DNA of 53,242 nucleotides from assembly GCF_028464065.1 (NCBI RefSeq), contig NZ_CP116809.1, forward strand, positions 1-53,242. The letters run 5' to 3'. The notes beneath the pieces are model-generated. The model did no database searches and had not been told where the DNA came from. It saw nothing but the letters and a program-made list of their open reading frames with translations. Below, in pieces: positions 1,095 to 51,730 of this stretch. The stretch comes from Saprospira sp. CCB-QB6 (GTDB lineage Bacteria > Bacteroidota > Bacteroidia > Chitinophagales > Saprospiraceae). Numbering within the stretch: the first letter of the stretch is position 1; every line of letters begins with the position of its first letter. Both the position numbers and the translations under genes were made by a program.

Positions 1095-1150
1095 ATAAAG
1101 AAATCTTTAATTAAAGATTTAACGAAATAAAGAAATAACGGAATCTTTAT
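1095..1150. repeat. Octamer array 1 (7 words)
   Basis: Seven contiguous 8-bp words: ATAAAGAA, ATCTTTAA, TTAAAGAT, TTAACGAA, ATAAAGAA, ATAACGGA, ATCTTTAT. All fit WTAAMGRW or its reverse complement. The last word supplies the stop codon of the recombinase gene on the minus strand (TTA at 1147-1149). This is the only array with no GC-rich hairpin element directly beside it. Confidence 0.85.
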
Positions 1151-1848
1151 TTATTTGGTCCATCTTTTTTTCGCCAACCTTTGTTTTTGAGCCAGCGATT
1201 GAGGTTGGAGGGCGTCGTTTTATAGCGATCGGCAATATAGCGTTGACTGCTGCCCTGGGCCAAAAGTGCTTGTATTTCGGGCCAAAAAGGATCGAGTTTA
1301 GAGCGGCCAGGGCCTTTGGGTCGGCCCAAAGGCAGGCCCTTGGCTTTGCGTGCGGCCAGGGCTTCTTTGGTCCGCTGGGCGATGAGGTCGCGCTCAATTT
1401 CGGCAGCCATAGAAAAGACCAGGGCCATAATTTTACTCTGCAAACTTTCGTCAAGTTGCCAGCCCCCTTTGACCGCATAAATTCGAATTCCTTTTTTGAG
1501 TGCCAATTGCAAGACCTCCATAATTTCCAACATCGAGCGGCCAATCCGAGAGAGCTCATTGACGATGATCGTATCGCCTTGGCCCAATTCTTCAATAATT
1601 TGGCCCAACCAGCGCTCCCGCCAATTTTTTCGGCCCGATACTTTTTCGGCAATAAAAAAGACCTTGCCCAAATTTTTATCATTGGCCAAAAAGAGAATCT
1701 CGGCCTTGTTTTTCTCTAAATTTTGTTCTTTTGTAGACACCCGCAGATAGGCCAAAGCCTTTGCCCCTTTTTGCTGCTTAAATTTTTGCCAAACGGCCTG
1801 ATTTTCTGCCATAATGCTGCTTTTGTCCCAAAATTCGCTAAAAACCAT
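1147..1848 (-). CDS. Serine recombinase (resolvase/invertase family)
   Basis: Small serine recombinase of 233 aa. The catalytic domain spans about residues 28-165: YLRVSTKEQ holds the nucleophile Ser38, and NELSRIGRS holds the conserved arginines (101, 104). A long helix region (AEIERDLIAQRTKEALAARKAKG) leads to the GRPKG hinge. The C-terminal part (about 185-226) looks like a helix-turn-helix (SSQRYIADRYKTTPSNLNRW). Such enzymes resolve cointegrates or invert DNA segments. No transposase or phage gene adjoins it. It lies between an isolated octamer array, which overlaps its 3' end, and the first composite element. An internal ATG at residue 13 is an alternative start. Confidence 0.88.
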   Translation of the reverse strand: MVFSEFWDKSSIMAENQAVWQKFKQQKGAKALAYLRVSTKEQNLEKNKAEILFLANDKNLGKVFFIAEKVSGRKNWRERWLGQIIEELGQGDTIIVNELSRIGRSMLEIMEVLQLALKKGIRIYAVKGGWQLDESLQSKIMALVFSMAAEIERDLIAQRTKEALAARKAKGLPLGRPKGPGRSKLDPFWPEIQALLAQGSSQRYIADRYKTTPSNLNRWLKNKGWRKKDGPNK

Positions 1849-1955
1849 TAAAGCCTTAGTTTTTAGACAACTTTTATTGTTAATTTATCCGTGAATTATT
1901 TTGCAATTTTTATTATAAAATAATGGAGGGTTTTTAATGAATTTTTTAGGGTTAG

Positions 1956-2480
1956 AGGCCCGCGGCCAGCTTTGCTGGCCGCCGCTATGCTGCCTGGCTC
2001 GCTGTTACTTGCTTCGCTGCGTCGGCTCCCGTTGGTCGGGTCGCTCGGCCCTGCAGCGCTTTCAGCGCTTTGGTCTGGCCTACGGCCACCAGTCCGCAGC
2101 GCTGGGCCGCTCATCTTTTGTACAAACTTTTGCCTTATTTGCTTCGGCCTAAAAACTAAATACCTGATTTATAGCGCCTAGTAGCAATAAAGAAATCTTT
2201 AATTAAAGATTTAACGAATTAAAGAAATAACGGAATCTTTATTGGCCCAATTTTGCAGCTAGCGGCTAGTTCATGAGGGGGGTAGCCCTCGTTTATAAAT
2301 CATCGCGAAGCGATAGCATTTTGCTGTGGGTTTCAACCCACAGTATCGGCTGAGGGATGGTAGGGGGTGGCCGCAGGCCAGACCGAGCTTTTTGAGCAAA
2401 GCGAAAAAAGCGCAGGGCCGAGCAGACCTGCGAGCCCCGTAGCATAGAGCGACCCGACCAAAGGGAGGGGAAGCCCCAAA
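1956..2480. repeat. Composite element 1: two inverted GC-rich arms around octamer array 2
   Basis: This gene-free spacer is one structured unit. A plus-oriented GC-rich arm covers about 1956-2119, with hairpins GGCCAGC/GCTGGCC, AGCGCT/AGCGCT and GGCC/GGCC. An AT-rich spacer contains TGTACA. The octamer array is at 2187-2242, then a second spacer carries CAATTTTGCAGCTAG. A minus-oriented arm covers about 2273-2480; it adds hairpin modules GAGGG/CCCTC, ATCGC/GCGAT and CTGTGGG/CCCACAG and ends in GGAAGCCCC 14 bp before the next start codon. The same order recurs at 5928, 11246 and 51302. No ORF in it resembles a protein. Bases 1849-1955 show nothing I can name. Confidence 0.8.
2187..2242. repeat. 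Octamer array 2 (7 words)
   Basis: Words: ATAAAGAA, ATCTTTAA, TTAAAGAT, TTAACGAA, TTAAAGAA, ATAACGGA, ATCTTTAT. The order matches array 1 except for one base in word five. It forms the core of composite element 1. Confidence 0.85.
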
Positions 2481-2493
2481 ACATCTAAAAACT

Positions 2494-5927: not shown

Positions 5928-6446
5928 TTGGGGCCTCCGCAGCAAAGCTGCGGCGCTACGTTTCAGGGCTCGCTATTCGCTCGGCCCTTCGGCGGCAAAG
6001 CCGCCTCGGTCTGGCCTGACGGCCACCCTTGCACATCGCTAGGCCGCTCATCTTTTGTACAAACTTTTGGCTTATATTGTTGGCCTAAAACCCTAATTCA
6101 CTGATTTACAGCCATTAATCTCAATAAAGAAATCTTTATTTAAAGATTTAACGAAATGAAGATTCCGTTAAATAAAGAATTAAAGAAATAACGGAATCTT
6201 TATTCCTTGCATGCTCCAATTTTGCAGCTAGAGGCGAGTTCATGAGGGGGGGTAGCCCTCATTTTTAAATCATCGCGAAGCGATACCTTTTTGCTGTGGG
6301 TTTTAACCCACAGTATCGGCTGAGGGATGGTAGCGGGTGGCCGAAGGCCAGACCAAGCTTTTGAGCGTAGCGAAAAAGCGCAGGGCCGAGCAGACCTGCG
6401 AGCCCCCGCACAGCCCGACCCGCCCGCAGGGCGGGGCAGCCCCAAA
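5928..6446. repeat. Composite element 2: two inverted GC-rich arms around octamer array 3
   Basis: Fills the spacer between pyrD and pyrEF. The plus-oriented arm (about 5928-6055) has hairpins CCGCAGC/GCTGCGG, GGCGGC/GCCGCC and GGCC/GGCC and continues with GCTCATCTTTTGTACAAAC, as in composite 1. The array is at 6124-6203. The minus-oriented arm (about 6240-6446) is preceded by CAATTTTGCAGCTAG and has the GAGGG, ATCGC and CTGTGGG hairpin modules. No gene is present. Confidence 0.8.
6124..6203. repeat. Octamer array 3 (10 words, the longest)
   Basis: Words: ATAAAGAA, ATCTTTAT, TTAAAGAT, TTAACGAA, ATGAAGAT, TCCGTTAA, ATAAAGAA, TTAAAGAA, ATAACGGA, ATCTTTAT. Only the fifth departs from the consensus, by one base. 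Confidence 0.85.
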
Positions 6447-6487: not shown

Positions 6488-7423
6488 TTAAATAGGAGCG
6501 GCGGTCTTCAATTTCCCTCGAAAATCTTCTATCGATTGATAACCCTTGGCTTGCATAATGGCCGTTAGTTCGGCGCTGATTTGCGCAAAACAACGAGGAC
6601 CAGTTTTCATCAGATGCGTGCCAATTTGTACGGCCTTGGCCCCACATAAAATATGCTCAAAGGCATCTTGGCCCGATTTGATGCCACCCACGGCCACCAC
6701 CGAAATATCTGGCCGCAAGAGCAAATAAAACTGTCGGACATTGGCCAGGGCGGTGGCCTTGATATAATCGCCGCCCAAACCGCCAAAGCCATCTTTGGGG
6801 CGAATTAAGGTCTCTTCTTTTTCCCAATCAATGACCAAGCCATTGCCAATGCTATTGATGCAGCTCACAAAAGACAAGGGAAATTGATTGAGAATTTGGG
6901 CCATTTGCTCAAAATGCAGCAGGTCGAAATAGGGCGGTAATTTGACCCCCAAAGGCTTGTTGTTTTGGGCAAAAACAGCCGCTAATACTTTTTCGGTTTG
7001 CTCAAAATCGTAAGCCGTTTGGGGTTTGCCTGGCAAATTTGGACAAGACAAATTCAGCTCTATGGCCGCAATATTTTCCTCCTCTTGCATGGCCGCAATC
7101 ATCTTGAGATTATCGGCCAAACTCATACCCGAAACCGAAACGATATAAGGCTTTTGAAAACTGGCCAATTCCTTAGCTGCCGCCAAATAATAAGCATGGC
7201 CCTTATTGGGCAAGCCCATAGAGTTGATGCTGCCCCAAGGCGTATCTACATAGCGAGGAGCGGGATTTCCCGATCTGGGCGCTAGGGTGGCGCTTTTGGA
7301 CAAAATAGCTCCCGCCGCAGACTGTCCAAGGGCTTGCAACTCTTCTAAGCTGCTGCAGGCTGGACCAGAAGCATTGTATATACAGTTGGCTAATTTAATG
7401 TTCGCTATTTTTGTTTTCAGCAT
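6488..7423 (-). CDS. pyrD: Dihydroorotate dehydrogenase, class 1A
   Basis: FMN enzyme oxidising dihydroorotate to orotate in the cytosol. Length (311 aa) and signatures fit the fumarate-dependent class 1A: SKSAT with Lys43, GNPAPRY, SINSMGLPN, and LNLSCPNLPGK with the active-site Cys127. The class 2 membrane enzyme would carry an N-terminal extension and a catalytic Ser instead. No pyrK partner is visible, which also argues against class 1B. It precedes pyrEF on the same strand but is separated by a terminator and composite element 2, so cotranscription is uncertain. Confidence 0.93.
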   Translation of the reverse strand: MLKTKIANIKLANCIYNASGPACSSLEELQALGQSAAGAILSKSATLAPRSGNPAPRYVDTPWGSINSMGLPNKGHAYYLAAAKELASFQKPYIVSVSGMSLADNLKMIAAMQEEENIAAIELNLSCPNLPGKPQTAYDFEQTEKVLAAVFAQNNKPLGVKLPPYFDLLHFEQMAQILNQFPLSFVSCINSIGNGLVIDWEKEETLIRPKDGFGGLGGDYIKATALANVRQFYLLLRPDISVVAVGGIKSGQDAFEHILCGAKAVQIGTHLMKTGPRCFAQISAELTAIMQAKGYQSIEDFRGKLKTAAPI

Positions 7424-7468
7424 TTTTTTTAAATTAAAAAATTGAATAACTCAAATCAATATTTAATT

Positions 7469-7972
7469 ATGAAGATTTTATTTTTATTTCTGGCTGTTTT
7501 GCTAGCAAATACTGCTTTTGCGCAAATTCAACCTTCTGAATCGAATGATCTAGATGGACCTAAATACAGAATTGTAACTGAGGCAGAACGAGAAGCTTTG
7601 GCCCAGAAAGGCTTGCATGTTGTCACCACCACAGATGAAGGATTACCCGATGATTGGGTTGAAGTATCTATCGAAGAACGAGAAGCTTTGGCTAGCAAAG
7701 GATTTCAAGTCATTACTACTACAGATGATGGACTACCCGACGACTGGGAGTTTGCCGATGAAGCCACTATCGCTAAACTAGTTGAAGCGGGTTATTGGAA
7801 AGAAAATGCGTCTACTAAAACAGGCGCTTGGGCAGATGGACAAGCGGGTTCTATGGAATCAGCAGGAGAGTATACGCTTATCCGCAGCAAAAGTGACCCT
7901 AAGCAATATGCCATTGTTTGTCAGAAAAATGATGGTATTTTAGAGATCTGCTGCATTAGAAAATTGTTCTAA
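7469..7972 (+). CDS. Small secreted protein with an internal duplication
   Basis: 167 aa with a clear signal peptide (MKILFLFLAVLLANTAFAQ). The mature part begins with two near-identical blocks of about 38 residues: EAEREALAQKGLHVVTTTDEG then LPDDW, and IEEREALASKGFQVITTTDDG then LPDDW. A third, diverged start (ATIAKLVEAGYWKE) follows. The C terminus (YTLIRSKSDPKQYAIVCQKN) is a separate segment. I do not recognise the family. The ATG at 7469 is chosen because it begins the signal peptide; a TTG-initiated extension upstream is unlikely. It is divergent from pyrD and convergent with guaA. Confidence 0.72.
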   Translation: MKILFLFLAVLLANTAFAQIQPSESNDLDGPKYRIVTEAEREALAQKGLHVVTTTDEGLPDDWVEVSIEEREALASKGFQVITTTDDGLPDDWEFADEATIAKLVEAGYWKENASTKTGAWADGQAGSMESAGEYTLIRSKSDPKQYAIVCQKNDGILEICCIRKLF

Positions 7973-7985
7973 TCGATATTAAAAT

Positions 7986-8010
7986 AAAGGGCTGTATATA
8001 CAGCCCTTTT
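7986..8010. terminator. Bidirectional terminator between the small secreted gene and guaA
   Basis: AAAGGGCTGTA (7986-7996) and TACAGCCCTTT (7999-8009) form a perfect 11-bp palindrome, with T on one side and A on the other. It can serve both convergent genes. Confidence 0.88.
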
Positions 8011-8014
8011 CTAT

Positions 8015-9547
8015 TTATTCCCACTCAATTGTTGCTGGTGGTTTAGAGGTAATATCATAAACAATGCGGTTCACCTGCTCCACCTCATTGACAATGCGGT
8101 TAGAGATTTTGGCCAAAAGGGGAAGTGGTAATCTGGACCAATCGGCTGTCATGCCATCTACACTAGAGACCGCTCTTAGGCCTAAAGTATAATGATAGGT
8201 TCTTTCGTCGCCCATAACGCCTACGGTTCGGATGCCTGTGAGTACGGCAAAGTATTGCCAAACCTCTTCTTCTAAATCAGCGGCTTCAATTTCGCTTCGG
8301 AAGATATAATCGGCCTCTCTCAAAATGACCAATTTAGGTTCAGTTACTTCTCCAATTACTCGAATGGCTAAACCTGGTCCAGGAAAAGGTTGTCTATTGA
8401 CCAAATAGCTGGGCAAGCCCAAAGCTGCCCCAACGGTCCGCACCTCATCCTTAAAAAGCAGGCGAAGTGGCTCAATCAGCTCTTTAAAATCGACGACATC
8501 AGGTAAGCCGCCCACATTATGGTGAGATTTAATCACGGCGGCATGTCCCGCCCCGCTTTCAATCACATCGGGATAAATCGTTCCTTGGACCAAAAAGTCT
8601 ACTTCGCCGATTTTCTTGGCCTCATCTTCAAACACTCGGATAAAGGTCTCGCCAATGCGCTTGCGCTTTTCTTCTGGATCGCTAACCCCAGCTAATTGAT
8701 TTAAAAAGCGCTCTTTAGCATCTACACAGATGAGCTGCAAATCGAGCTCTTGGCGAAACAGTTGCTCCACCTGCTCCGCCTCATTTTTACGCAGCAAGCC
8801 ATTATCTACAAAAATGCAGGTCAACTGTTTGCCTACTGCTTTATGGACCAACATGGCCGCTACCGAAGAATCTACGCCTCCAGACAAAGCGCAAAGTACT
8901 TTCTTATCGCCAATCTTCGCTCGAATTTCGGCCAAACTGGCCTCAATAAAGTTATCCGTTTGCCAATCGCCTTTTAGGTCCGCCACTTCATAGAGGAAGT
9001 TATGGAGCATTTGCTGACCAAAAGCCGTATGCATGACCTCTGGATGATATTGGAAGCCATAAATTTGCTTTTCTTTTTGGGCAAAAGCCGCCACGGGACA
9101 ATGATCGGTGCTCGCAATGGCTTCAAAGCCCGCTGGCAGTTCGCTGACTTGATAAGTGTGGCTCATCCAACAATCAGATTGAGCGGGAACCGATTTGAAA
9201 ATAGCTGTTGGCTGCACTTGCAGCTCTTTTTTTCCATATTCTCTAGCCAAGGCTGGCGCTACTTTTCCTCCCGACAAATGGACCAAGAGCTGTGCCCCAT
9301 AACAAATGCCTAAAATGGGTAAACCCAAATCTAAAATAGCGGGATCCATAGAGGGCGCTCCCTCTGCATAAACGACTGCGGGACCACCAGAAAGCACAAT
9401 GGCTTTAGCGCCTTTGGCCTTGACCTCTTCGGCAGTAATTTGGCCCGAAACGACTTCGGAATACACTGAGGCCTCTCTTAATCTTCGGGCAATGAGTTGA
9501 TTGTATTGGGCCCCAAAATCAAGGACCAGAACGACTTCTTTTTGCAT
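8015..9547 (-). CDS. guaA: GMP synthase (glutamine-hydrolysing)
   Basis: Converts XMP to GMP. The class I glutamine amidotransferase domain (about 1-190) has its triad in GICYGAQ (Cys82) and YHPE (His168, Glu170). The ATP pyrophosphatase domain begins at the P-loop LSGGVDSS (222-228), and the C-terminal dimerisation domain includes [12 protein letters not shown] and ends in the family-typical IEWE. At 510 aa it is full length. guaB lies 10 bp upstream, so the two probably form a guaBA operon making GMP from IMP. Confidence 0.97.
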
Positions 9548-9557
9548 AGTTTTATCT

Positions 9558-11096
<1,539 letters not shown>

Positions 11097-11245
11097 CTAG
11101 AAAAAGGGGGGCTTTTCGGCCCTAAGCGTTTAACTAATTGTTAATTCAATTTGAGCCCTTAGGCTAGTCTAGTGAATTATCCCTAGTTTTGCAGCTCATT
11201 AAGGACTGAATTCAAAATCAACCCTTGATTATCAGTTTTTTATGT

Positions 11246-11728
11246 TTTTGGGGCTGCCCCGCCCTGTGGGCGGGTCGGGCTGTTTCAGGGCTCGCAGGTC
11301 TGCTCGGCCCTTCGCAAAAAATGCTGCGCATTTTTGCTCGGTCTGGCCCTGCGGGCCACCCTTGTCCATCCCTCAGCCGATACTGTGGGTTAACACCCAC
11401 AGCAATCTGGTATCGCTTTGCGATGCCTTATAAATGAGGGTTAAAACCCTCATAAATTGATCTCTTTGGGCGGATGGAAATGAGGACTGTTGGACCCATT
11501 GACGGAATAAAGATTCCGTTAAATAAAGAATTAAAGATTTAAAGAAATAACGGAATCTTTAATGCTTGGAGGCCGAAGCAGAATGCCCAAAGTAAACCCA
11601 AAAGAGGAGCAGCCTAGCGATGTGCAGCAGTGGCCGTCAGGCCAGACCCAGGCGGCGCAGCCGCCGCAGGGCCGAGCGAACAGCGAGCTGCGGAACGTAG
11701 CGCCTGCCGCAGGCAGGAGGCCCCAAAA
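11246..11728. repeat. Composite element 3: two inverted GC-rich arms around octamer array 4
   Basis: Sits between the divergent guaB and purM genes. The plus arm (about 11246-11453) has GCCCCGCC/GGGCGGG, an A/T-armed hairpin (GCAAAAA/TTTTTGC), GGCCC/GGGCC, then CTGTGGG/CCCACAG, ATCGC/GCGAT and GAGGG/CCCTC modules, the mirror of the minus arms of composites 1 and 2. The array is at 11499-11562. The minus arm (about 11609-11728) has GGCGGC/GCCGCC-type and CCTGCC/GGCAGG hairpins and ends GGAGGCCCC. No gene; 11025-11245 shows nothing I can name. Confidence 0.8.
11499..11562. repeat. Octamer array 4 (8 words)
   Basis: Words: TTGACGGA, ATAAAGAT, TCCGTTAA, ATAAAGAA, TTAAAGAT, TTAAAGAA, ATAACGGA, ATCTTTAA. 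The first departs from consensus by one base. Confidence 0.85.
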
Positions 11729-11781
11729 AAGACAAAAAGTTCTTCCAAAGCCAGATTTTTGAATCATTAAGAAAAAGCAAC

Positions 11782-12861
11782 ATGCAAAAGAAAGCGGCTA
11801 GCGGAATGGATATCAATTTGGGCAATTCCTGTTCTCAGGATGCCTATGCTTGGGCCAAAAAGACCTTTGTGCAAAGAGCAGGAAAGGCGGGGGCTTTGGC
11901 GCCCAATTTAGAAGGTGGATTTTCGAATTTGCTCTTATTTGGCCAAGAGCGAATTGGTATTGCTTCGGATGGCATCGGGACCAAAATTGAGTTGGCCGAA
12001 AGAAGCAAAAAATACGATACTCTGGGTTTTGATTTATTAGCCATGGTGGCCGATGATTTGGCCACAGCGGGCTTTGAACCCACCAACTTATCCAATATTA
12101 TTGATGTAGATCATTTGGACCAAGCAATCATCAACGAGTTGATGAAAGGCTTGTCGGAGGCCTGTGCATTTACGGGCGTGAGCATCACGGGAGGCGAAAT
12201 TGCCGAATTGGGCAATCGCATTTCGGGTTATGGCGAGGGGATGCACTTCAATTGGTGTTCTACGGCCATTGGGCATTTGCCCACGCAATTGGCACAGCCC
12301 ATCGATGGCAGTCAGATAGAAGAGGGACAAGTTGTTGTGGCGGTGAAGAGCCAGGGCTTTAGAAGCAATGGCTTTTCGCTCATTAGGCGAATCATGGAAA
12401 AAAACTTTGGCCCAGATTGGCAGGATGCGCCCTATGATGATACTTGCAGTTGGGGCGAAAAACTCTTAACGCCCTCGCTGATTTGCGCGCCACTCATCAA
12501 CAAATGGTTAAGCCATGATATTTTGCCCAGCGGCTTGGTCCATATTACGGGCGGCGGCATAGCCGACAACTTCAGGCGCTTGCTTAAGCGAAAAAATAAG
12601 GGAGCTCGTCTAGAAAACCTCTTTGCGCCCTTGCCAATGATGAAAAAAGTCATGAGTTTAGGGGAAATTACCTTAGAAGACGCCTACTTATACTGGAACA
12701 TGGGAAATGCCTTTTTAGCCGTTTTGCCAGCCGAGCAGTTAGATGCTGCTTTAGCTTTGGCCCAAGATACTCCTTATCAGCTAGTTCGAGCGGGAGAAAT
12801 TACGGCTACACCCAATATTCAGATTGTCTTGGAGGAAAAAACATTGAACTACAATTTCTAA
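11782..12861 (+). CDS. purM: Phosphoribosylformylglycinamidine cyclo-ligase (AIR synthase)
   Basis: Closes the imidazole ring of AIR from FGAM and ATP. Family features in order: ASDGIGTKIELA near 75, DLLAMVADDLATAGFEP near 95-111, SITGGEIAELG near 148-158, and VHITGGGIADNFRRLL near 253-268. At 359 aa it is slightly longer than the usual 330-350. An ATG nine codons in (11806, MDINLGNSC) is possible. It is the first gene of the plus-strand purine series and ends in its own terminator, so it may be transcribed separately from purL. Confidence 0.95.
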   Translation: MQKKAASGMDINLGNSCSQDAYAWAKKTFVQRAGKAGALAPNLEGGFSNLLLFGQERIGIASDGIGTKIELAERSKKYDTLGFDLLAMVADDLATAGFEPTNLSNIIDVDHLDQAIINELMKGLSEACAFTGVSITGGEIAELGNRISGYGEGMHFNWCSTAIGHLPTQLAQPIDGSQIEEGQVVVAVKSQGFRSNGFSLIRRIMEKNFGPDWQDAPYDDTCSWGEKLLTPSLICAPLINKWLSHDILPSGLVHITGGGIADNFRRLLKRKNKGARLENLFAPLPMMKKVMSLGEITLEDAYLYWNMGNAFLAVLPAEQLDAALALAQDTPYQLVRAGEITATPNIQIVLEEKTLNYNF

Positions 12862-12870
12862 GCATAGAAA

Positions 12871-12897
12871 AGACTGCCCAAATTGGGCAGTCTTTTT
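12871..12897 (+). terminator. Terminator between purM and purL
   Basis: AGACTGCCC and GGGCAGTCT (9-bp perfect stem, loop AAATT) are followed by seven T residues. It lies 9 bp after the purM stop and overlaps a TTG-initiated extension of the purL frame, which supports the later purL start. Confidence 0.9.
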
Positions 12898-12921
12898 TTG
12901 TTGGACCACATATCTAATTTA

Positions 12922-15900
12922 ATGACCAACTATCCACATATATTCCGTTATCTACGTCCCAATTTAGCCGATTGGCAGGGCCAGAAGATTGTGCAAGCTG
13001 CAGAGCTACATTTGGGCCTCAAAACGGGTGAAATTCGTTTAACTCAGCTCTTTTCTTTGGCCGAAGAGGCCCAAGAAGAGCAGCTCTTGGCCTTTGCAGA
13101 GGCTTGTATTCAAGATCCTTTGACGGACCAAATTGAAATCAATCAATTAAATTGGCCCAAAGGTTTTGCCTCGGCGGTAGCTATTGCCCAATTACCTGGA
13201 GTTACAGATGATGAGGGCCGCTCGGCCCAAATGGCTTGGGCCGATTTCTTCAATTTGCCTTTTGAGCCAGAAGAACAGCGCATTTTTAGCCAAACCATCT
13301 ACCTCATAGAAAAGGATTTGACGGCTGAAGAGCTCAAGGCCTTGGCCCAGCGCCTTTTGGGCAACCCACTAATTCATCATTTTAGCTATTTCAAGGCCCA
13401 AGAAGGCGGTTTTGACCGCCCTTTTTATGTTCCCAAAGTGCAAATACAAGCCAATAAAGAGCGCCAACTGATTGATTTGGACCCTTTGAGCGACGAAGAA
13501 CTGCTGCGGCTATCTAAAGAAATGGTTTTGGCCCTCAATTTAGCCGAAATGCAAGCCATTAGAGACTATTATGGCAGCGAGGCGGTCCAAGCATTTAGAG
13601 CGACCAAAGGCTTGCCCGCTCAACCAACCGACTGCGAGCTAGAAGTGCTGGCCCAAACTTGGTCCGAGCACTGCAAACACAAGGAATTTAATGCCTTGAT
13701 TCACTATAAAAACCTAGAAACAGGCGAAGAAAAAGAGATTCATTCGCTCTTTAAGACCTTTATCAAAGGTGCTACCGATAATGTGGCTGCTTCTTTGGCC
13801 GAAAAAGGCAATGATTGGCTGGTCAAGGTGTTTTCTGATAATGCTGGAGTGGTTAAAGCTACGGATAAACATCTCTTTGTCTGGAAAGTAGAAACGCATA
13901 ACTCGCCTTCTGCACTTGATCCTTATGGTGGAGCAATTACAGGCATTTTAGGGAACAATCGCGACCCACTAGGAACGGGAGTGGGTGGCGCTCAACTGCT
14001 GTTTAATACTAATGTCCTTTGTTTTGGCCCACCCAACTACAACAAAGCACTACTCAAGGGCCAATTGCATCCCCGCCAAATTATGGAAGGGGTCGTTTCA
14101 GGTATCGAAGATGGTGGAAATAAGTCTGGCGTGCCTACAGTCAACGGCTCAATTGTCTTTGATGAGCGCTATAGCGGCAAACCTTTGGTCTACTGTGGTA
14201 CTGCGGGCATTATGCCTTACGATTATTTGGGCAAAAATAGCTGGGAAAAACCAATTGATGCTAATGATCGCATCATTATGGCCGGCGGTAGAGTGGGCAA
14301 AGATGGCATTCATGGCGCTACTTTCTCTTCTATTGAAATTGATGAGCATTCACCTATGTCAGCAGTCCAAATTGGTAGCCCTATCACCCAAAAAATGCTT
14401 TACGATTTTATGCGAGTGGCCACCGCTCAAGGACTCATTAAATGTAGTACGGATAATGGCGCAGGGGGACTCTCTTCTTCGGTGGGCGAACTGGCCGAAA
14501 TTAGCGGCGGGGCTTTGGTCCAATTGGAAAAGGTGCCACTAAAATATGCAGGTCTTCGCCCTTGGGAAATCTTTGTCTCTGAGTCGCAAGAACGCATGAC
14601 TTTAGTCGTGGAAACAGAAAAATGGCCTTCCCTAAAAGCGCTCGCGCTACAATATGAAGTGGAGCTCTCCGATATTGGCTATTTCACCAATGATGGCTAT
14701 TTAGATATTCGCTACGAAGAGGAACAAATTGCCTTATTGAGTATGCAGTTTTTGCATGAAGGCGTTCCCCAAAAAGAAATGTGGGCCGAATGGGAAAAAC
14801 CAGAACTTCAAGAGCCAGCGCTTCCCGAAAACTTAGATTATAATCAACTGCTCTTAGACCTGATGAGCAGCCTAAATATCTGCTCTAGAGAAAGTATTAT
14901 CCGCCAATACGACCATGAGGTCAAAGGAAAAACTATTCTCAAGCCACTAATGGGCGCCAAAGGTAAAGCCCCTCAAGATGCAGCCGTTCTTCGCTTTGAT
15001 TTCTCTGATTATCAAGGGGTAGCCGTATCTAATGGTATTATTCCCCGCTATGGCGATATTGATGCCTACCAAATGTCGGCCAGCGCCTTTGATGAGGCGA
15101 TCCGCCAAATTATTTCGGTGGGTGGCCGCCTACCCAATATGACAGAAAACGATGATATTTTCTGGTCCATTAACGATAATTTTTGTGTGCCCGATTCGGA
15201 GTTTCATCCCGAACATAATCCAGATGGCAAACTCAAACTCGCCAAATTGGTGCAGATGTGCCAAGCCCTTTATGATATGGCCAGCTTTTTCGATATCCCC
15301 CTCACTTCAGGTAAGGACAGTATGAAAAACGACTTTAAGGCAGAGGGCCAAAAGATTTCGGTCCCGCCCACTATTCTCTACTCTTTTACGGCCAAAATGA
15401 AGGATGTTCGCCAAACCATTAGTGCAGAATTTAAAATGCCTGGCGACTTGATTTATCAATTGGGCACTACTTATAATGAATTGGGCGCCTCTGAGTTTTA
15501 TCAGCTATTTGGCGAGTTAGGCGCTAATGTTCCTAAGGTCCGAAAAGAAGCCGCCAAAGCCCTTTATATCAAGGTTATGCAGGCTAATGAAGCTGGTTTG
15601 ATCGCCTCTAGCCACGATTTATCCGATGGCGGCTTAGCCGTTGCCTTGGCCGAGTCTTGTTTCGGTGGCGATTTGGGCGCCAATATCCAACTGGAGCAAT
15701 TAGGCGATTTGACGGCTGCACAATTGCTGTTTTCTGAGTCAAATTCTCGCTTTTTAGTCTCTATCGCCCCCGAAAATCAAGCTGCTTTTGAAGAAATTAT
15801 GGGCGATTCTGCCTTTTTCTTGGGCCAAGTAAGCGACGACCAACAGTTGAGTATCCAACTCGGCCAAGAGGAGCTGATCCAATTGAACATCGAGCAATTG

Positions 15901-15933
15901 GAAACCGCTTGGTCGCAAACGCTTTCTCTCTAA
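12922..15933 (+). CDS. purL: FGAM synthase, synthetase subunit of large-PurL type lacking the glutaminase domain
   Basis: ATP-dependent amidation of FGAR to FGAM. The 1003-aa chain has the N-terminal PurS-like and linker region of large PurL (about 1-230), the TWSEHCKHKEF motif near residue 246, the NSPSALDPYGGAITG and GTGVGGAQ segments, and a second AIR-synthase-like half (SGKDSMKND near 800, SHDLSDGGLAVALAESC near 895). Large PurL of about 1290 aa normally ends in a glutamine amidotransferase domain. Here that part is a separate gene, purQ, 32 bp downstream. The start at 12922 (MTNYPHIFRYL) is preferred over a TTG at 12883 inside a terminator. Confidence 0.94.
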   Translation: MTNYPHIFRYLRPNLADWQGQKIVQAAELHLGLKTGEIRLTQLFSLAEEAQEEQLLAFAEACIQDPLTDQIEINQLNWPKGFASAVAIAQLPGVTDDEGRSAQMAWADFFNLPFEPEEQRIFSQTIYLIEKDLTAEELKALAQRLLGNPLIHHFSYFKAQEGGFDRPFYVPKVQIQANKERQLIDLDPLSDEELLRLSKEMVLALNLAEMQAIRDYYGSEAVQAFRATKGLPAQPTDCELEVLAQTWSEHCKHKEFNALIHYKNLETGEEKEIHSLFKTFIKGATDNVAASLAEKGNDWLVKVFSDNAGVVKATDKHLFVWKVETHNSPSALDPYGGAITGILGNNRDPLGTGVGGAQLLFNTNVLCFGPPNYNKALLKGQLHPRQIMEGVVSGIEDGGNKSGVPTVNGSIVFDERYSGKPLVYCGTAGIMPYDYLGKNSWEKPIDANDRIIMAGGRVGKDGIHGATFSSIEIDEHSPMSAVQIGSPITQKMLYDFMRVATAQGLIKCSTDNGAGGLSSSVGELAEISGGALVQLEKVPLKYAGLRPWEIFVSESQERMTLVVETEKWPSLKALALQYEVELSDIGYFTNDGYLDIRYEEEQIALLSMQFLHEGVPQKEMWAEWEKPELQEPALPENLDYNQLLLDLMSSLNICSRESIIRQYDHEVKGKTILKPLMGAKGKAPQDAAVLRFDFSDYQGVAVSNGIIPRYGDIDAYQMSASAFDEAIRQIISVGGRLPNMTENDDIFWSINDNFCVPDSEFHPEHNPDGKLKLAKLVQMCQALYDMASFFDIPLTSGKDSMKNDFKAEGQKISVPPTILYSFTAKMKDVRQTISAEFKMPGDLIYQLGTTYNELGASEFYQLFGELGANVPKVRKEAAKALYIKVMQANEAGLIASSHDLSDGGLAVALAESCFGGDLGANIQLEQLGDLTAAQLLFSESNSRFLVSIAPENQAAFEEIMGDSAFFLGQVSDDQQLSIQLGQEELIQLNIEQLETAWSQTLSL

Positions 15934-15965
15934 TTTCTGGACCTTCCTTTACTAAATAACTTACC

Positions 15966-16781
15966 ATGGTACAAGTTCTTGTGCTTACTGGCTTTGGGAT
16001 TAACTGCGAAGAAGAAACCGCCGCCGCCTACCAAATGGCAGGCGCCCAAGCCCATATCCACCACTTTAATGAGGTCCTTTTAGAGGGCCACGATATTCAC
16101 CAATATCAATTGATTCACTTCCCTGGCGGCTTTTCTTTCGGAGATGATCTGGCCTCTGGCAAAGTGATGGCCAATAAAATCCGATATAAGAAGCTCCCCA
16201 ATGGCAATAGCCTGCTCGATGAGCTCAAAATTTTCCTCAATAATGGCCATTTTATTATGGGCATTTGCAATGGCTTCCAAATGTTGGTGCGCCTGGGCCT
16301 TTTGCCCAATACCCGCCTCAGTTTTGTCCAACAATCTAGCCTTTTGCCCAATCTTTCTAGCCAATATGAGGACCGCTGGGTTTACTGTAAGGTGAATCCC
16401 GACTCCGAAAGCCCCTTCCTAAAAGGCATCGATATTATCCCGCTGCCGGTCCGCCACGGAGAAGGCCGCCTCCTTTTTGGCGATGACACACTCAAGCAGA
16501 TTGTCCGCACAAAATCACTCAATTGCCTCAGCTATTGCCTAGAAAATGGCGACTTAGCCACTGAATATCCCGCTAATCCCAACGGCTCAGAGCTTTCTTG
16601 CGCCGGACTTTGCGATCCCACCGGCCAGGTTTTCGGCCTGATGCCCCATCCAGAAGCTTTTTTAAGCCTCTATAATCACCCGAATTGGCCCAAAATGAAA
16701 CGCCAAAATCCTCAACTTTCTGAGGAGGGCTGGGGCCTGAAATTTTTCAAAAATATTGTGCAACATATTCAAGCGAATTAA
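15966..16781 (+). CDS. purQ: FGAM synthase, glutaminase subunit
   Basis: Class I glutamine amidotransferase that supplies ammonia to PurL. GICNGFQ holds nucleophile Cys101, and MPHPEAF holds His228 and Glu230. At 271 aa it is longer than the roughly 225-aa PurQ of the Bacillus type and similar in size to the glutaminase domain of large PurL, in keeping with a split large enzyme. It follows purL by 32 bp, so it is probably cotranscribed and translated with it. A plus-oriented hairpin element starts 2 bp after its stop codon. Confidence 0.94.
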   Translation: MVQVLVLTGFGINCEEETAAAYQMAGAQAHIHHFNEVLLEGHDIHQYQLIHFPGGFSFGDDLASGKVMANKIRYKKLPNGNSLLDELKIFLNNGHFIMGICNGFQMLVRLGLLPNTRLSFVQQSSLLPNLSSQYEDRWVYCKVNPDSESPFLKGIDIIPLPVRHGEGRLLFGDDTLKQIVRTKSLNCLSYCLENGDLATEYPANPNGSELSCAGLCDPTGQVFGLMPHPEAFLSLYNHPNWPKMKRQNPQLSEEGWGLKFFKNIVQHIQAN

Positions 16782-16783
16782 GA

Positions 16784-16922
16784 TTTGGGGCCTCCGCAGC
16801 AAAGCTGCGGCGCTACGTTTCAGGGCTCGCTATTCGCTCGGCCCTTCGCCAGCTTTGCTGGCTCGGTCTGGCCTGACGGCCACCCTTGCACATCGCTAGG
16901 CCTGCGGGCGCTTTGCGCCCTG
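16784..16922 (+). repeat. GC-rich hairpin element between purQ and purH
   Basis: Plus orientation, immediately after the purQ stop. Hairpins in order: CCGCAGC/GCTGCGG, GCCAGC/GCTGGC, GGCC/GGCC and a terminal GGGCGC/GCGCCC. The invariant parts (CAGGGCTCGC, GCTCGGCCCTTC, CGGTCTGGCC, CATCGCTAGGCC) lie between them. Confidence 0.8.
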
Positions 16923-16978
16923 CTATACTCAATAATGGACCACTAATTATTCTCTCACTTTTCTCTCAATTGCTTCTT

Positions 16979-18580: not shown

Positions 18581-18599
18581 ATGGTCCATTTGCGTTTGG

Positions 18600-18738: not shown

Positions 18739-18756
18739 AACAAAACAGTCATCAAT

Positions 18757-19692: not shown

Positions 19693-19695
19693 GCT

Positions 19696-33730: not shown

Positions 33731-33753
33731 GAGGCCCCTAGCTGCCCGTCTAA

Positions 33754-34252: not shown

Positions 34253-34273
34253 CTTGGTCCAGACTTCTGCGTT

Positions 34274-34515: not shown

Positions 34516-34571
34516 ATAAAGATTTCTTTATTTAACGGAATCTTTATTTCGTTAAATCTTTAATTAAAGAT
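34516..34571. repeat. Octamer array 8 (7 words)
   Basis: Words: ATAAAGAT, TTCTTTAT, TTAACGGA, ATCTTTAT, TTCGTTAA, ATCTTTAA, TTAAAGAT. All fit the consensus. It lies 23 bp beyond the 3' end of the HPt gene. Confidence 0.86.
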
Positions 34572-36265: not shown

Positions 36266-36427
36266 TTTGGGGCCGCCCGCCTTTGGCGGGCGGTTACTCC
36301 CTTTGGTCGTCGAACTGCAGCCTAAAGGCCTTGTTGTCGTTCCGCAGCTCGCTATTCGCTCGGCCCTTCGGCCTGCGGCCTCGGTCTGGCCTAAGGGCCA
36401 CTGCTGCACATCGCTAGGCCGAGGGCC
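36266..36427 (+). repeat. GC-rich hairpin element with the GTCGTCGAACTGC module
   Basis: Plus orientation, between the divergent NtrC-like and TetR genes. Hairpins: CCCGCC/GGCGGG, GGCC/GGCC around TGC, and GGCC/GGGCC. The insert GGTTACTCCCTTTGGTCGTC, AACTGC is shared, in reverse, with the element at 49657. Confidence 0.75.
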
Positions 36428-36499
36428 GTTTCCAAGCTTTCGACAAAAGTTGGGGCTTTTTTGTAATTTTGGAGGACGCTCGATCTCCTTTGGGCCAAA

Positions 36500-37096
36500 A
36501 TGAAAATAAAACCTATGCCTAGTTTAGAAAAAGAAAGCAAAAAATCTCAAATCTATCGAGCCGCCGCTCAACTCTTTAAAGAAAAAGGTTACCAAGCTGC
36601 TTCCATGCGCGATTTAGCCGAGCGGGTAGAGCTGCGAGCCTCTAGTCTTTACAATCACATTGGGTCCAAAGAAGAGATTTTGCAGCAAATTTGTTTTGAA
36701 CATGCCCAAGATTTTCTCAAAGCTATGCAAGAGGTGGAAGAACTTCCCATCAGTCAGGGCCAAAAAATTGAGCGTTTACTGCGCTTACATATTCGCAAGG
36801 CGCTCAAGGATGTGAGTAGCCTAACGGTCTTCAATGATGAATGGAAACACCTTAGCAGCCCCCATCTCGAAAAGTTTAGACGGCTGCGCAAAGATTATGA
36901 AAATCGCTTTAGGGCCATTATTGAGCAAGCCGTAGCCGCTGGAGAATTACCCCAGCTAGACACAGAACTTTTGCTTTATGCTTTGCTCAATGCGATTCAT
37001 TGGCTGCCAAATTGGAATCATCGCAATAGTACACTTACTGCCAGCGAATTAGAAGAACAAGTATTACGCATCCTACTCAAAGGAATCCAAAAATAA
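36500..37096 (+). CDS. TetR-family regulator, probable repressor of the paa genes
   Basis: 198 aa. The N-terminal helix-turn-helix spans about 16-62 (IYRAAAQLFKEKGYQAASMR, DLAERVELRASSLYNHIGSK). The C-terminal ligand domain (about 75-198) resembles those of acyl-CoA-responsive TetR proteins. It is first in a same-strand series of phenylacetate genes. Two copies of a 16-bp palindrome, one 44 bp before the E1 gene and one before paaA, fit as its operators. By analogy with PaaR, phenylacetyl-CoA would be the inducer; that is inference. A GCC/GGC mini-hairpin and nine T residues near 37099-37119 may be its terminator. Confidence 0.85.
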   Translation: MKIKPMPSLEKESKKSQIYRAAAQLFKEKGYQAASMRDLAERVELRASSLYNHIGSKEEILQQICFEHAQDFLKAMQEVEELPISQGQKIERLLRLHIRKALKDVSSLTVFNDEWKHLSSPHLEKFRRLRKDYENRFRAIIEQAVAAGELPQLDTELLLYALLNAIHWLPNWNHRNSTLTASELEEQVLRILLKGIQK

Positions 37097-41610: not shown

Positions 41611-41746
41611 TGGCCTAGCGATGTGAAAGGGTGGCGCAAAGCGCCAGCCCAAAGCCGCCTTTGGCGGCTGCAGGGCCGAGCAGACCTGCGAGCCCTGTAA
41701 CGTAGCGCCGACGACCGGAGGGAGACGGAGGCCCCAAAACATTAAA
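41611..41746 (-). repeat. GC-rich hairpin element between paaA and paaB
   Basis: Minus orientation. Hairpins on the plus strand: GGCGC/GCGCC and GCCGCC/GGCGGC. The third hairpin is replaced by a CGACGACCGGAGGGAG segment like the module at 36290 and 49720. The leader CCCCAAAACATTAAAAA follows, just before paaB. Confidence 0.8.
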
Positions 41747-41757
41747 AATAACAAGCA

Positions 41758-42042
41758 ATGGATAAGAAATCATGGCCTCTATGGGAGGTGTTTATCAGAA
41801 GTAAATCGGGTTTGCAGCACAAACATGTGGGCAGCCTGCATGCCGTAGATGCGCAAATGGCCCTAGAAAATGCTAGAGATGTATATACGCGCAGAAATGA
41901 AGGTTTGAGCATTTGGGTGATCCCTTCTAGCCAAATTGTGGCCTCTGAACCCGAAGACGAGTATATCTTCGAGGCGGCCAAATCTAAGGTGTATCGCCAC
42001 CCCACTTTCTATGATATTCCCGATGAAGTGGGCCATATGTAG
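41758..42042 (+). CDS. paaB: Phenylacetyl-CoA epoxidase subunit PaaB
   Basis: 94 aa, the usual size. WPLWEVFIRSKSGLQHKHVG near 6-25 and HAVDAQMALENARDVYTRRNEG near 28-49 are the family signature, ending in SIWVIPSSQIV and YRHPTFYDIPDEV. PaaB bridges PaaAC heterodimers in the epoxidase complex. It is followed closely by paaC (33 bp), so the two should be on one transcript. Confidence 0.95.
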   Translation: MDKKSWPLWEVFIRSKSGLQHKHVGSLHAVDAQMALENARDVYTRRNEGLSIWVIPSSQIVASEPEDEYIFEAAKSKVYRHPTFYDIPDEVGHM

Positions 42043-42976: not shown

Positions 42977-43040
42977 TTAAAGAAATAACGGAATCTTTAT
43001 TTCTTTAATCCGTTAATTCTTTATTTAAAGAAATCTTTAT
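42977..43040. repeat. Octamer array 9 (8 words), just upstream of paaD
   Basis: Words: TTAAAGAA, ATAACGGA, ATCTTTAT, TTCTTTAA, TCCGTTAA, TTCTTTAT, TTAAAGAA, ATCTTTAT. All fit the consensus. It ends 6 bp before the paaD start codon, so it occupies the ribosome-binding region. Confidence 0.87.
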
Positions 43041-46114: not shown

Positions 46115-47332
46115 ATGTCTAAAGCAAGTTTTTTGGTGGATGGTGTACGCACGGCCATCGGTAATTTTGGCGGGACTTTATCGCCTGTTCGGACCGATGA
46201 TTTGGCGGCCCATGTGATTAAGGAATTGGTGGCCCGCCATCCCAATATTCCGCAAGATAGTTATGATGATGTGATTTTGGGCTGTGCCAATCAGGCCGGA
46301 GAAGACAACCGAAATGTGGCCCGTATGGCGCTTTTGTTGGCGGGTTTGCCTTATTCGGTGCCTGGCGAAACGGTGAATCGACTTTGTGCTTCGGGCATGT
46401 CGGCTGCTATTCATGCGCATCGGGCCATTATGGCGGGCGATGGGGAGCTGTTTTTGGCTGGAGGCGTGGAGCATATGACCCGCGGTCCTTGGGTCATTTC
46501 TAAGGTCTCTAAACCTTTTGGCCGAGATGCGCAGATGCATGATTCTAGCTTCGGTTGGCGCTTTGTCAATCCCAAAATGAAGGAAATTTATGGAGTGGAT
46601 GGCATGGGCGTAACTGCCGAGAACTTGGTGGATTTGCACCAAATTTCAAGAGCTGATCAAGATCTTTTTGCCTATCGCTCTCAAATGAAGGCGGCTGCGG
46701 CTCAAGAAAAAGGCATTTTGGCCGAAGAAATTGTGCCGATTGCCATCAAACGACGCAAACAAGAGGACCTTATTTTTGATCAAGATGAGTTCATCAAACC
46801 CAATTCTAGTCTAGAAGTTTTGGGCAAGTTGCGGGCTGCTTTTCGCAAGGAAGGCGGTAGCGTGACGGCGGGCAATTCTTCTGGCCTCAATGATGGCGCA
46901 GCGGTTAATCTTATCGCTTCGGCAGCAGCGGTGGAGCGCTACCAATTGCAGCCTTTGGCCCAAATTATTAGCTCGGCTGTGGTGGGCGTAGAGCCTCGAA
47001 TTATGGGAATCGGTCCCGTAGAAGCTAGCCGAAAAGCCTTGGCCAAAGCTGGACTCAGCCTCGATCAAATGGATGTGATTGAGCTCAATGAGGCCTTTGC
47101 TGCCCAAAGTTTGGCTTGCACCCGCAGCCTCGGTCTAGCCGATGACGATCCTCGCATCAATCCCAATGGCGGTGCGATTGCCATTGGCCACCCCTTGGGG
47201 GTAACGGGCGCCCGCATTTTGTTGGCGGCCGCTCGAGAGTTGCAGCGCAAAGGTGGAAAATACGCTTTGGTAACGATGTGTATTGGCGTGGGCCAAGGCT
47301 ATGCAACCATCATCAAAAATGTAAATGTCTAA
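46115..47332 (+). CDS. paaJ: 3-oxoadipyl-CoA / acetyl-CoA thiolase
   Basis: 405 aa from the ATG at 46115 ([20 protein letters not shown]). Last step of the pathway: 3-oxoadipyl-CoA to succinyl-CoA and acetyl-CoA. [10 protein letters not shown] holds the nucleophilic Cys, NEAFAAQSL the first conserved His-region motif, [17 protein letters not shown] the catalytic His, and TMCIGVGQG the second Cys. The family also includes acetoacetyl-CoA thiolases. The role in phenylacetate breakdown rests on the genes around it. Confidence 0.9.
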
Positions 47333-47336
47333 ACAG

Positions 47337-47460
47337 TTTTGGGGCCTCCGCTGCGGCTTCGCCTTGCGGCGCTACGTTTCGCAGCTCGCTATTCGCTCGG
47401 CCCTTCGCCAGCTTCGCTGGCTTGGTCTGGCCTTCGGCCACTGCTGCACATCGCTAGGCC
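47337..47460 (+). repeat. GC-rich hairpin element between paaJ and paaZ
   Basis: Plus orientation, 4 bp after the thiolase stop. Hairpins: CCGC/GCGG (with a long loop), GCCAGC/GCTGGC and GGCC/GGCC. Octamer array 10 follows about 65 bp later. Confidence 0.82.
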
Positions 47461-47524
47461 AAATAACAGTCTTGCGTTTTGGTCCTAAAATTTACAACTG
47501 GCTGATAAGTAGCTATTTGGACCA

Positions 47525-47588
47525 ATAAAGATTTCTTTAATTAAAGAAATAAAGAATTAACGGATTAAAGATTTAAAGAAATAAAGAA
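47525..47588. repeat. Octamer array 10 (8 words), abutting the paaZ start codon
   Basis: Words: ATAAAGAT, TTCTTTAA, TTAAAGAA, ATAAAGAA, TTAACGGA, TTAAAGAT, TTAAAGAA, ATAAAGAA. The array ends one base before the ATG at 47590, so the purine-rich last words (AAAGAAATAAAGAAG) form the translation start region. Confidence 0.88.
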
Positions 47589-50567: not shown

Positions 50568-51170
50568 ATGTTTTACGAGTTTAGAGGATACCGCCCTGTG
50601 GTGCATGAAACGGCTTTTGTGCATCCTCAGGCTAATGTAACGGGCAATGTGTTCATCGGAGCGCATTGTTATATTGGGCCAGGGGCTGTTTTGCGGGGAG
50701 ATTGGGGCGAAATTCGCTTAGAAGAAGGCTGCAATATTCAGGAAAACTGTGTGGTCCATATGTTCCCAGGCCGCTCAGCTTACTTTGGAGCTGGGGCGCA
50801 TGTGGGACATGGAGCCATTATTCATGGGGCGCATTTGGAAGAAAATACCATGGTCGGTATGAATGCGGTTTTGATGGATGATGTTCGCCTAGGGGCCCAT
50901 AGTATTGTGGGTGCTTTGAGTTTCTTAAAAGGCGAAATGAAGATTCCGCCTCGTTCTTTGGTGGTCGGAAATCCCGCCAGAATTGTCAAAGAGCTAAGTG
51001 ATGAAATGATTGCTTGGAAGCGAAAAGGAACGGGACTTTACCAGCAATTGCCTAAAGATTGCCATGAGAGTTTAAAAGTTTGCGAGCCTTTAAGGCAAGC
51101 AGAAGAAGGGCGGCTGGGTCGTCAAGCTTTTGCCGAATTTGAAAGCCTGAAGCGAACAAAGCGAAAATAA
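50568..51170 (+). CDS. paaY: Hexapeptide-repeat protein PaaY
   Basis: 200 aa. Left-handed beta-helix of gamma-carbonic-anhydrase type: ANVTGNVFIGAHCYIGPGAV, LRGDWGEIRLEEGCNIQENC, VVHMFPG, GAHVGHGAIIHGAHL with the likely metal-binding histidines, then LGAHSIVGALSF. PaaY of other bacteria is a thioesterase that cleaves a ring-hydroxylated CoA by-product of the pathway. It follows paaF by 15 bp and ends the paa series at a terminator. Confidence 0.88.
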   Translation: MFYEFRGYRPVVHETAFVHPQANVTGNVFIGAHCYIGPGAVLRGDWGEIRLEEGCNIQENCVVHMFPGRSAYFGAGAHVGHGAIIHGAHLEENTMVGMNAVLMDDVRLGAHSIVGALSFLKGEMKIPPRSLVVGNPARIVKELSDEMIAWKRKGTGLYQQLPKDCHESLKVCEPLRQAEEGRLGRQAFAEFESLKRTKRK

Positions 51171-51173
51171 ATG

Positions 51174-51203
51174 AAAAGCCCCTGCAATTATAGGGGCTTT
51201 TTT
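51174..51203 (+). terminator. Terminator of the paa series
   Basis: AAAAGCCCCT and AGGGGCTTTT (10-bp stem, loop of 8) followed by T residues, 3 bp after the paaY stop. Confidence 0.9.
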
Positions 51204-51301
51204 ATGGCTAATATTTATTGGTCCCTCAACTTTTTCCTTTTAATAAAAAGGAGTGGAGAAGTCATTAAAGTTGCTTTTGAAGAAAAGACTAAGGATAATA
51301 A

Positions 51302-51730
51302 TTTGGGGCCCGCGGCCAGCTTTGCTGGCCGCCGCTATGCTACGGGGCTCGCAGGTCTGCTCGGCCCTGCGCCGCCTTTGGCGGCTGGGTCTGGCCTTCG
51401 GCCACCCCTCCGCAGCGCTGGGCCGCTCATCTTTACTAGCAGCTTTTGGTCCAATCGCTTCGGCACTAAAATCAATTGTTTGATTAACAGGAATTAGTGC
51501 CTATAAAGAAATCTTTAATTAAATAATTAACGAAATAAAGATTTAAAGAAATAACGGAATCTTTATTGCCTACATGGACCAATTTTGCATCTAGAGGCGG
51601 TGAAGCCGCCTAGCTGAGGGATGGACAGCAGTGGCCGAAGGCCAGACCAAGCCAGCGAAGCTGGCGAAGGGCCGAGCGAATAGCGAGCTGCGAAACAGCC
51701 CGACCCGCCCGAAGGGCGGGGCAGCCCCAA
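51302..51730. repeat. Composite element 4: two inverted GC-rich arms around octamer array 11
   Basis: The plus arm (about 51302-51432) has GGCCAGC/GCTGGCC, GCCGCC/GGCGGC and GGCC/GGCC hairpins and continues with GCTCATCTTT, as in composites 1 and 2. The array is at 51502-51565, then CAATTTTGCATCTAG. The minus arm (about 51592-51730) has GGCGG/CCGCC, GGCC/GGCC, GCCAGC/GCTGGC and CCCGCC/GGCGGG. This copy is the shortest and lacks the CTGTGGG module. Bases 51204-51301 show nothing I can name. Confidence 0.8.
51502..51565. repeat. Octamer array 11 (8 words)
   Basis: Words: ATAAAGAA, ATCTTTAA, TTAAATAA, TTAACGAA, ATAAAGAT, TTAAAGAA, ATAACGGA, ATCTTTAT. The third departs from the consensus. Confidence 0.85.

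Follow-up and report, generated by a model that had tools for sequence, protein, structure and literature searches.

What purpose is served by the eleven arrays of 8-bp words spread over NZ_CP116809.1, a 53,242-bp contig of Saprospira sp. CCB-QB6? This stretch, analyzed at its full length and hereafter called the window, is a complete Saprospira plasmid and makes up the entire second contig (C2) of a two-contig, 4.24-Mb genome. It carries genes for a Rep3 initiator, a ParA ATPase, a small ribbon–helix–helix (RHH) protein, a serine resolvase and a KilA-N protein, as well as genes for purine, pyrimidine and guanosine monophosphate synthesis and phenylacetate genes. We consider it very likely that the arrays are parS sites, centromere and operator in one, of the type Ib ParA–RHH partition system encoded at 30414–31560, each word being the site of one RHH dimer. 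Two plasmid records alone match the DNA of the par–rep region, one from S. grandis WH (NZ_CP110855, 53,161 b) and one from Lewin (NC_016936, 54,948 b); these two plasmids and a 56.6-kb scaffold taken to be strain DSM 2844 carry 11 arrays each. The arrays and the par genes of the window, whose gene names are taken from the annotated sister plasmids, are as follows.

Array 1, 1095–1150: 7 words (10 in each of the three other plasmids), located between convergent genes and sharing 4 bp with the end of the resolvase gene.
Array 2, 2187–2242: 7 words, between the divergent resolvase gene and the gene at 2494.
Array 3, 6124–6203: 10 words, upstream of pyrF (minus strand); one end of the block inverted in DSM 2844.
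Array 4, 11499–11562: 8 words, between the divergent guaB and first purine-block gene; identical 8 words in WH and Lewin.
Array 5, 24864–24927: 8 words, the first 12 bp being the end of purF; between convergent genes; other end of the block inverted in DSM 2844.
Array 6, 26343–26398: 7 words, the first two imperfect, upstream of a minus-strand gene called 'hypothetical' in the sister plasmids.
Array 7, 30276–30331: 7 words, as in all four plasmids; upstream of parA at a distance of 82 bp; presumed to be both operator and centromere.
Array 8, 34516–34571: 7 words, about 0.8 kb past rep, with a convergent Hpt gene on its other side; 8 words in the three relatives.
Array 9, 42977–43040: 8 words, with 6 bp left between its end and the paaD start codon; two words inverted when compared with WH, Lewin and DSM 2844.
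Array 10, 47525–47588: 8 words, ending 1 bp before the paaZ start codon.
Array 11, 51503–51566: 8 words, the third imperfect, between convergent genes; 5, 10 and 11 words in WH, Lewin and DSM 2844, respectively.
parA, 30414–31052, plus strand: 212-residue ParA/ParF-like Walker ATPase (QKGGVGKST).
Predicted gene of an RHH centromere-binding protein (ParB/ParG-like), 31330–31560, plus strand: 76 residues, with the ATG at 31330 as in the sister-plasmid annotation.

All the arrays begin where an earlier note on this DNA had placed them, except the last, which starts at 51503 rather than 51502. The tally of that note was reproduced as well: 85 words in strict 8-bp register, 79 of which match WTAAMGRW or its reverse complement exactly, with an orientation that switches along the arrays (50 words forward, 35 reverse). 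A chance origin of the phased runs is not supported, since Markov-shuffled windows (20 each at orders 1, 2, 3 and 5) hold a mean of 0–0.05 runs of at least two words, the longest being two words, versus 13 runs of 2–8 exact words in the real window. Pooled over three plasmids, the oriented word cores are TAAAGA (194 of 271), TAACGG (47), TAACGA (19) and a few variants. A TpA step is absent from the word boundaries, both in the window (0 of 74, about 10 expected) and in the three plasmids (0 of 238, about 33 expected from letter frequencies, the orthologous arrays not being independent); in either case, none of 10,000 shuffles gave zero. A structural demand at the junction between neighboring dimers may be one reason. 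The view of the earlier note that the arrays are not simple copies of one sequence applies to those at 30276, 26343, 47525 and 42977, which fit a common master poorly or not at all, and fails for about seven others. An ordered master, from which words have been dropped or to which words have been added, appears to be common to arrays 1095, 2187, 6124 and 51503, to 24864 in reverse and, in part, to 11499 and to 34516 in reverse, with p values from 0.005 (the lowest that 200 shuffles allow) to 0.04 in a word-level alignment of 55 array pairs (200 word shuffles each, multiple tests uncorrected). Many arrays are therefore copies altered mostly by whole words.

With respect to gene setting, four arrays lie between convergent, three between divergent and four between tandem genes. 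A separate observation concerns their left flank: a motif near CTGATTNNNAGC starts 12–24 bp ahead of several arrays (at 1071, 2164, 6101, 34504 and 47502), and matches with at most one mismatch number 26 over the whole window versus 17 expected, a figure attained in 4 of 100 shuffles.

Of the two contigs of the genome, only the one encoding the RHH protein bears arrays, which supports a role in partition: the best match of the array model on the chromosome (contig C1) has an E-value of 0.13, compared with 1.5e-9 on C2, and this search rules out a chromosome-wide element. The plasmid is chromid-like in that the genome's sole match to the purH family (PF01808) is located on it. The de novo purine genes, that purH match included, occupy 11782–24875, so that the plasmid may be indispensable in media devoid of purines.

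The par operon has the characteristics of type Ib, namely a small ParA with a Walker motif and no extra N-terminal DNA-binding domain, a small RHH protein encoded next to parA, and direct and inverted repeats at the operon (30276–30331; also in relatives). The Walker motif of ParA, QKGGVGKST, starts at residue 10; the protein matches Pfam AAA_31/CbiA, aligns along its length with ParF (4dzz, E 1.4e-5) and scores 102 bits against NF041546, under the cut-off of 180. The 76-residue RHH protein consists of an RHH core and a lysine- and proline-rich tail. The hidden Markov model (HMM) of its family has a single match among the 641 reading frames of the window and a single match at E<0.1 in the genome. 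The best solved relative found with the family profile is ParG of TP228 (1p94, E 0.0058, collinear over profile positions 29–74); a search of the PDB with the protein alone gave no meaningful match. An AlphaFold model of the monomer, built from an alignment of 44 family members, displays two helices and no strand, with a predicted local distance difference test (pLDDT) score of 79.5 and a predicted template modeling (pTM) score of 0.44. Foldseek returned weak E-values for this model (best, 0.29), and the neighbors that we recognized among the matches listed (50 of 72), i.e. ParG, CopG, ORF56, Arc and others, are RHH proteins.

Centromeres made of phased short repeats and read by RHH proteins are a known kind, octamer version included. 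The statement of the earlier note that no described bacterial element is built this way must be given up: the parS sites of pSM19035 (heptads; PMC9499535) and of pESBL (octamers; PMC7602700) have this architecture. According to PMC9499535, pSM19035 has six sites, each of 7–10 contiguous 7-bp repeats; one RHH dimer binds each repeat, a lone repeat is bound weakly, stimulation of the ParA ATPase takes at least four contiguous repeats, and the repeats also allow RHH partition proteins to control par and copy-control genes. The delta/omega system of this plasmid and the Saprospira arrays have in common several sites of 7–10 short non-palindromic repeats in mixed orientation, and the Saprospira arrays, with 5–11 words, exceed the four-repeat need reported there. 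They differ in that the unit is the 7-bp WATCACW at six sites in pSM19035 and the 8-bp WTAAMGRW at eleven in Saprospira, whose arrays are consequently not heptad sites, and in that the pSM19035 sites overlap the copS, delta and omega promoters, whereas Saprospira arrays also lie between convergent genes and between metabolic genes (PMC9499535 for pSM19035). For pESBL (IncI, type Ib), PMC7602700 describes as many complexes in electrophoretic mobility shift assays as there are octamers, seemingly weak binding of a single octamer, and a par locus that stabilizes mini-F. Judged by that description of the repeats, pESBL and Saprospira both use 8-bp units, direct and inverted, near par genes; the pESBL consensus is GATAACAA instead of WTAAMGRW, and pESBL has two arrays, which flank parAB. 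One IncI-gamma/K1 par locus encodes an RHH relative with an FATRV strand, and the best period of its flanks is 11, not 8. The parH site of TP228 is likewise described, in PMC7308502 and PMC5016525, as an array in which ParG coats repeats that are direct as well as inverted. TP228 ParF and ParG (76 residues) are solved relatives of the Saprospira ParA and RHH family, and parH is made of degenerate tetramer boxes with AT-rich spacers, unlike the contiguous Saprospira words. The spacing of these boxes is said to add up to 8 bp.

Among the papers listed in searches of an open-access library, none showed a description of the Saprospira arrays, and a term search of the WHT announcement gave no hit for repeat, partition or purine. 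As far as these searches show, three things are apparently new: the eleven dispersed arrays on a chromid-like plasmid, their evolution by whole words, and a multi-phylum ParA–RHH family with matched strands and words.

Array length differs among strains: the number of words varies at 7 of the 11 orthologous arrays of the window, WH and Lewin (1095, 2187, 6124, 24864, 26343, 34516 and 51503) and is constant at 11499, 30276, 42977 and 47525. Over the plasmids, lengths range from 5 to 11 words with the register kept. Relative to the window, the aligned array words of WH differ at 25 of 624 bp and those of Lewin at 22 of 680 bp (3–4%), and the 60-bp array flanks diverge by 12.1% and 13.7%, respectively; word-indel events number 10 and 8, one in each comparison being an artefact of the caller, which starts array 34516 at 34500 with two extra leading non-words. 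A pair of neighboring words in array 42977 is flipped as one unit: its orientation in the window is opposite to that in WH, Lewin and the DSM 2844 scaffold. On a larger scale, block 6501–24928 (18.4 kb) is inverted in the DSM 2844 scaffold, with both junctions inside arrays resembling 6124/24864 hybrids; it could be a scaffold misjoin at inverted repeats. Arrays 6124 and 24864 were left out of the DSM 2844 comparison, as the inversion leaves them without a simple orthologue there. Whole-word gains and losses, the two-word inversion and the array-ended inversion of 18 kb agree with the earlier suggestion of stepwise addition or recombination acting on 8-bp units, except that a dedicated word-adding machine, for which no search was made, is not favored. 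In our reading, the binding-site repeats recombine with one another while selection preserves the register; the word changes would follow if such recombination is frequent and products out of register are lost.

The link between arrays and RHH protein extends beyond this plasmid. Among 298 Saprospiraceae genomes, 13 have an array-model match at E 0.001 or better and 16 an RHH match counted as strong (E below 1e-15), a number that rises to 21 when E 0.001 is the limit. Nine genomes have both, for which the chance P is 2e-10. With the genus itself set aside, both are present in five of nine (P 5e-6), each time on one contig and within about 3.5 kb. Two draft genomes of the same genus have neither.

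We also compared 88 par loci: the window, the best 80 among 154 genome loci and seven of eight plasmid loci, L042, which has no ParA annotated beside the match, being left out of the counts. By HMM, the RHH gene adjoins parA in 86 of the 88, the exceptions being L085 and L114. The 300 bp upstream of parA were then searched for units of 6–12 bp on either strand, against single-base shuffles, in the 86 of 87 regions that were long enough (window excluded, S. grandis plasmids present only as L043 and L044, many Nostoc rows near-identical). The best period is 8 in 72 of the 86, 11 in six, 7 in three, 6 and 12 in two each, and 9 in one; z exceeds 3 for period 8 in 64 of the 86, and for periods 6, 7, 9, 10, 11 and 12 in 13, 1, 1, 12, 20 and 21, respectively. 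A scan of whole loci, which span at most about 20–37 kb, most plasmids not being seen whole, places 65 of 119 period-8 arrays between 400 bp before parA and 700 bp past its end. In the same interval lie 9 of 84 arrays of period 6, 3 of 25 of period 7, 1 of 18 of period 9 and 1 of 12 of period 10, these counts including N runs (L047, L098) and low-complexity stretches.

The letters of the words change with the strand of the RHH protein. All seven proteins with Q at the strand position where N prevails (six LQ, one FQ) go with CATG words (observed/expected 2.5–7.3) and with TAAMG/TAGCG at 0.2–1.2, whereas TAAMG/TAGCG is at or above expectation in 63 of 74 loci with an N strand, at least 1.5-fold in 45 and at least 2-fold in 24. 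CATG rises above 2 in three N-strand loci (L106, L039 and L100), L106 alone reaching the range of the Q class. Of three A strands, L110 and L119 lean to CATG (2.9 and 3.0) and L122 does not. A further class comprises the loci with an FATR strand (L122 and L157–L159): none of their eight flanking stretches has 8 bp as its best period, which is 11 bp in five (in one of them at no more than z 2.9), 14 bp in two and 7 bp in the remaining one. L119 (ATR strand) has no clear repeat unit. L157, L158 and L159 are enterobacterial plasmid par loci whose FATRV-strand RHH protein has a long tail, with units such as ATCTTGCTGCA.

These data point to the following scheme. By analogy with the dimer-per-repeat occupancy described in PMC9499535 and PMC7602700, one RHH dimer would be expected to occupy each 8-bp word in either orientation, with dimers lying side by side along the unbroken array. 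Of the ideas in the earlier note, arrays of protein-binding half-sites are what these data support, each word being the probable site of one RHH dimer. Nucleoid-bound ParA would meet the coated arrays, and the plasmid would be moved or tethered. Through the array upstream of parA, the RHH protein would autoregulate its operon, and the arrays at paaD, paaZ, pyrF, guaB and the purine block could serve to repress these genes.

Other explanations must be weighed against this one, and two of them call on further features of the window.

Serine resolvase gene, 1147–1848: between arrays 1 and 2.
Probable Rep iterons, 32118–32233, plus strand: 21–22-bp direct repeats, distinct from the arrays.
Rep3-type replication initiator, 32360–33730, plus strand: Pfam Rep3_N/Rep3_C.

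The arrays could chiefly define a plasmid-wide regulon, the RHH protein repressing the purine, pyrimidine and phenylacetate genes and partition proceeding through one or two arrays only. Consistent with this idea, paaZ and paaD start 1 and 6 bp, respectively, past the end of an array, pyrF, guaB and the purine block have arrays upstream, and RHH partition proteins do regulate par and copy-control genes by way of these repeats in the known case (PMC9499535). Yet the arrays at 1095, 24864, 34516 and 51503 are located between convergent genes, where a promoter is not expected, so promoter-only operators are insufficient for 4 of the 11, and the period-8 arrays of relatives are often at the par operon (the 65 of 119 given above); such a regulon is a possibility that we take seriously while thinking it unlikely. 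The words could also be assembled by an enzyme that adds, removes and inverts 8-bp units, protein binding being secondary. The length change at 7 of 11 arrays, the paired inversion at 42977 and the DSM 2844 inversion ending in arrays would fit, as would the resolvase gene and the recombinase or integrase genes present in some relatives' loci (e.g. L037 and L040). Homologous recombination or slippage would give the same changes if only in-register products function, the DSM 2844 inversion is possibly a misassembly, and the regular adjacency of the RHH gene and parA (86 of 88) speaks against a recombinase as the primary partner; we hold this explanation to be improbable. We rejected, as very improbable, the idea that the replication initiator uses the arrays as iterons or for handcuffing: initiator plasmids do use directly repeated sites and one array lies about 0.8 kb after rep, but the Rep3 gene has its own 21–22-bp repeats just upstream, the array unit is 8 bp and not about 20 bp, a Tunicatimonas ParA–RHH plasmid with a RepL initiator keeps a short, weak period-8 array before parA (z 3.1), and the array words track the RHH strand. 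Finally, the words are AT-rich and short-unit repeats are common, so chance AT-rich or simple-repeat DNA was considered; it is refuted by the shuffles, the conservation in four plasmids and the lack of a match on the chromosome, which leave it a negligible probability.

The identification of the arrays as parS sites of the ParA–RHH system has its own difficulties. Binding of the RHH protein to the arrays is proposed from sequence and analogy, the match of the window protein to RHH_10 (E 0.006) is below the Pfam cut-off, and eleven dispersed sites exceed the needs of a centromere. Four of the 13 Saprospiraceae genomes with an array match have no RHH match, their array matches being weak (best E 4e-5 to 5e-4). 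In the par loci, z = 3 is also exceeded by period 11, and likewise by period 12, in some 20 cases, L060–L063 have no convincing period-8 array upstream of parA, and TAAMG/TAGCG falls below expectation in 11 of the 74 N-strand loci (nine alphaproteobacterial loci, L083 and, marginally, L091). Many cyanobacterial rows are near copies, and the Q class requires three changes on the ParA tree, at least two of them forced by well-supported branches, so that the agreement between strand and words amounts to a handful of events, not 86. The divergence of the arrays is somewhat lowered because the word alignment favors matching words.

A broader reading would combine several of these elements: one RHH protein would gather the eleven arrays into a single partition body and report the state of the plasmid to the purine, pyrimidine and phenylacetate genes; the arrays would also be in-register recombination points that reshuffle the replicon, which would be hard to lose as it holds the only purH; and both the length of the unit (8 bp with N or Q, 11 bp with FATR) and its letters would be set by the RHH strand. 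As a whole, we regard it as speculative and rather improbable.

If the arrays are parS sites, as we favor, the related loci form a natural series (Bacteroidota, Cyanobacteriota, Pseudomonadota, Acidobacteriota, Chloroflexota and others) in which RHH protein and phased array appear to co-vary, and which provides a test bed both for how RHH dimers read and count their sites and for the design of compatible plasmid centromeres. The Saprospira plasmids are the extreme case of this series, with eleven centromere-like sites on a small chromid-like replicon, and make it testable why a partition system has several sites. The arrays are also predicted markers of par loci whose small RHH genes carry only a 'hypothetical' annotation.

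Three minor observations concern the rest of the plasmid. Probably spurious intergenic reading frames share peptides such as SLFARPFGG and RRYVTGLAGLLGP (2293–2484, 5928–6445, 11225–11767, 21064–21264, 26399–26563, 34243–34398, 36267–36503, 41615–41773, 47325–47528 and 51171–51730), which suggests a GC-rich repeat family dispersed in the intergenic DNA, sometimes directly beside arrays. A tandem repeat of 207 bp (2.4 copies, 96% matches) lies at 33753–34252, just after rep. Lastly, Lewin carries, at 52768–53512 of NC_016936 (L034), extra short genes of the orotidine-phosphate decarboxylase family and of KilA-N beside pyrF, suggesting a duplication or an assembly duplication.

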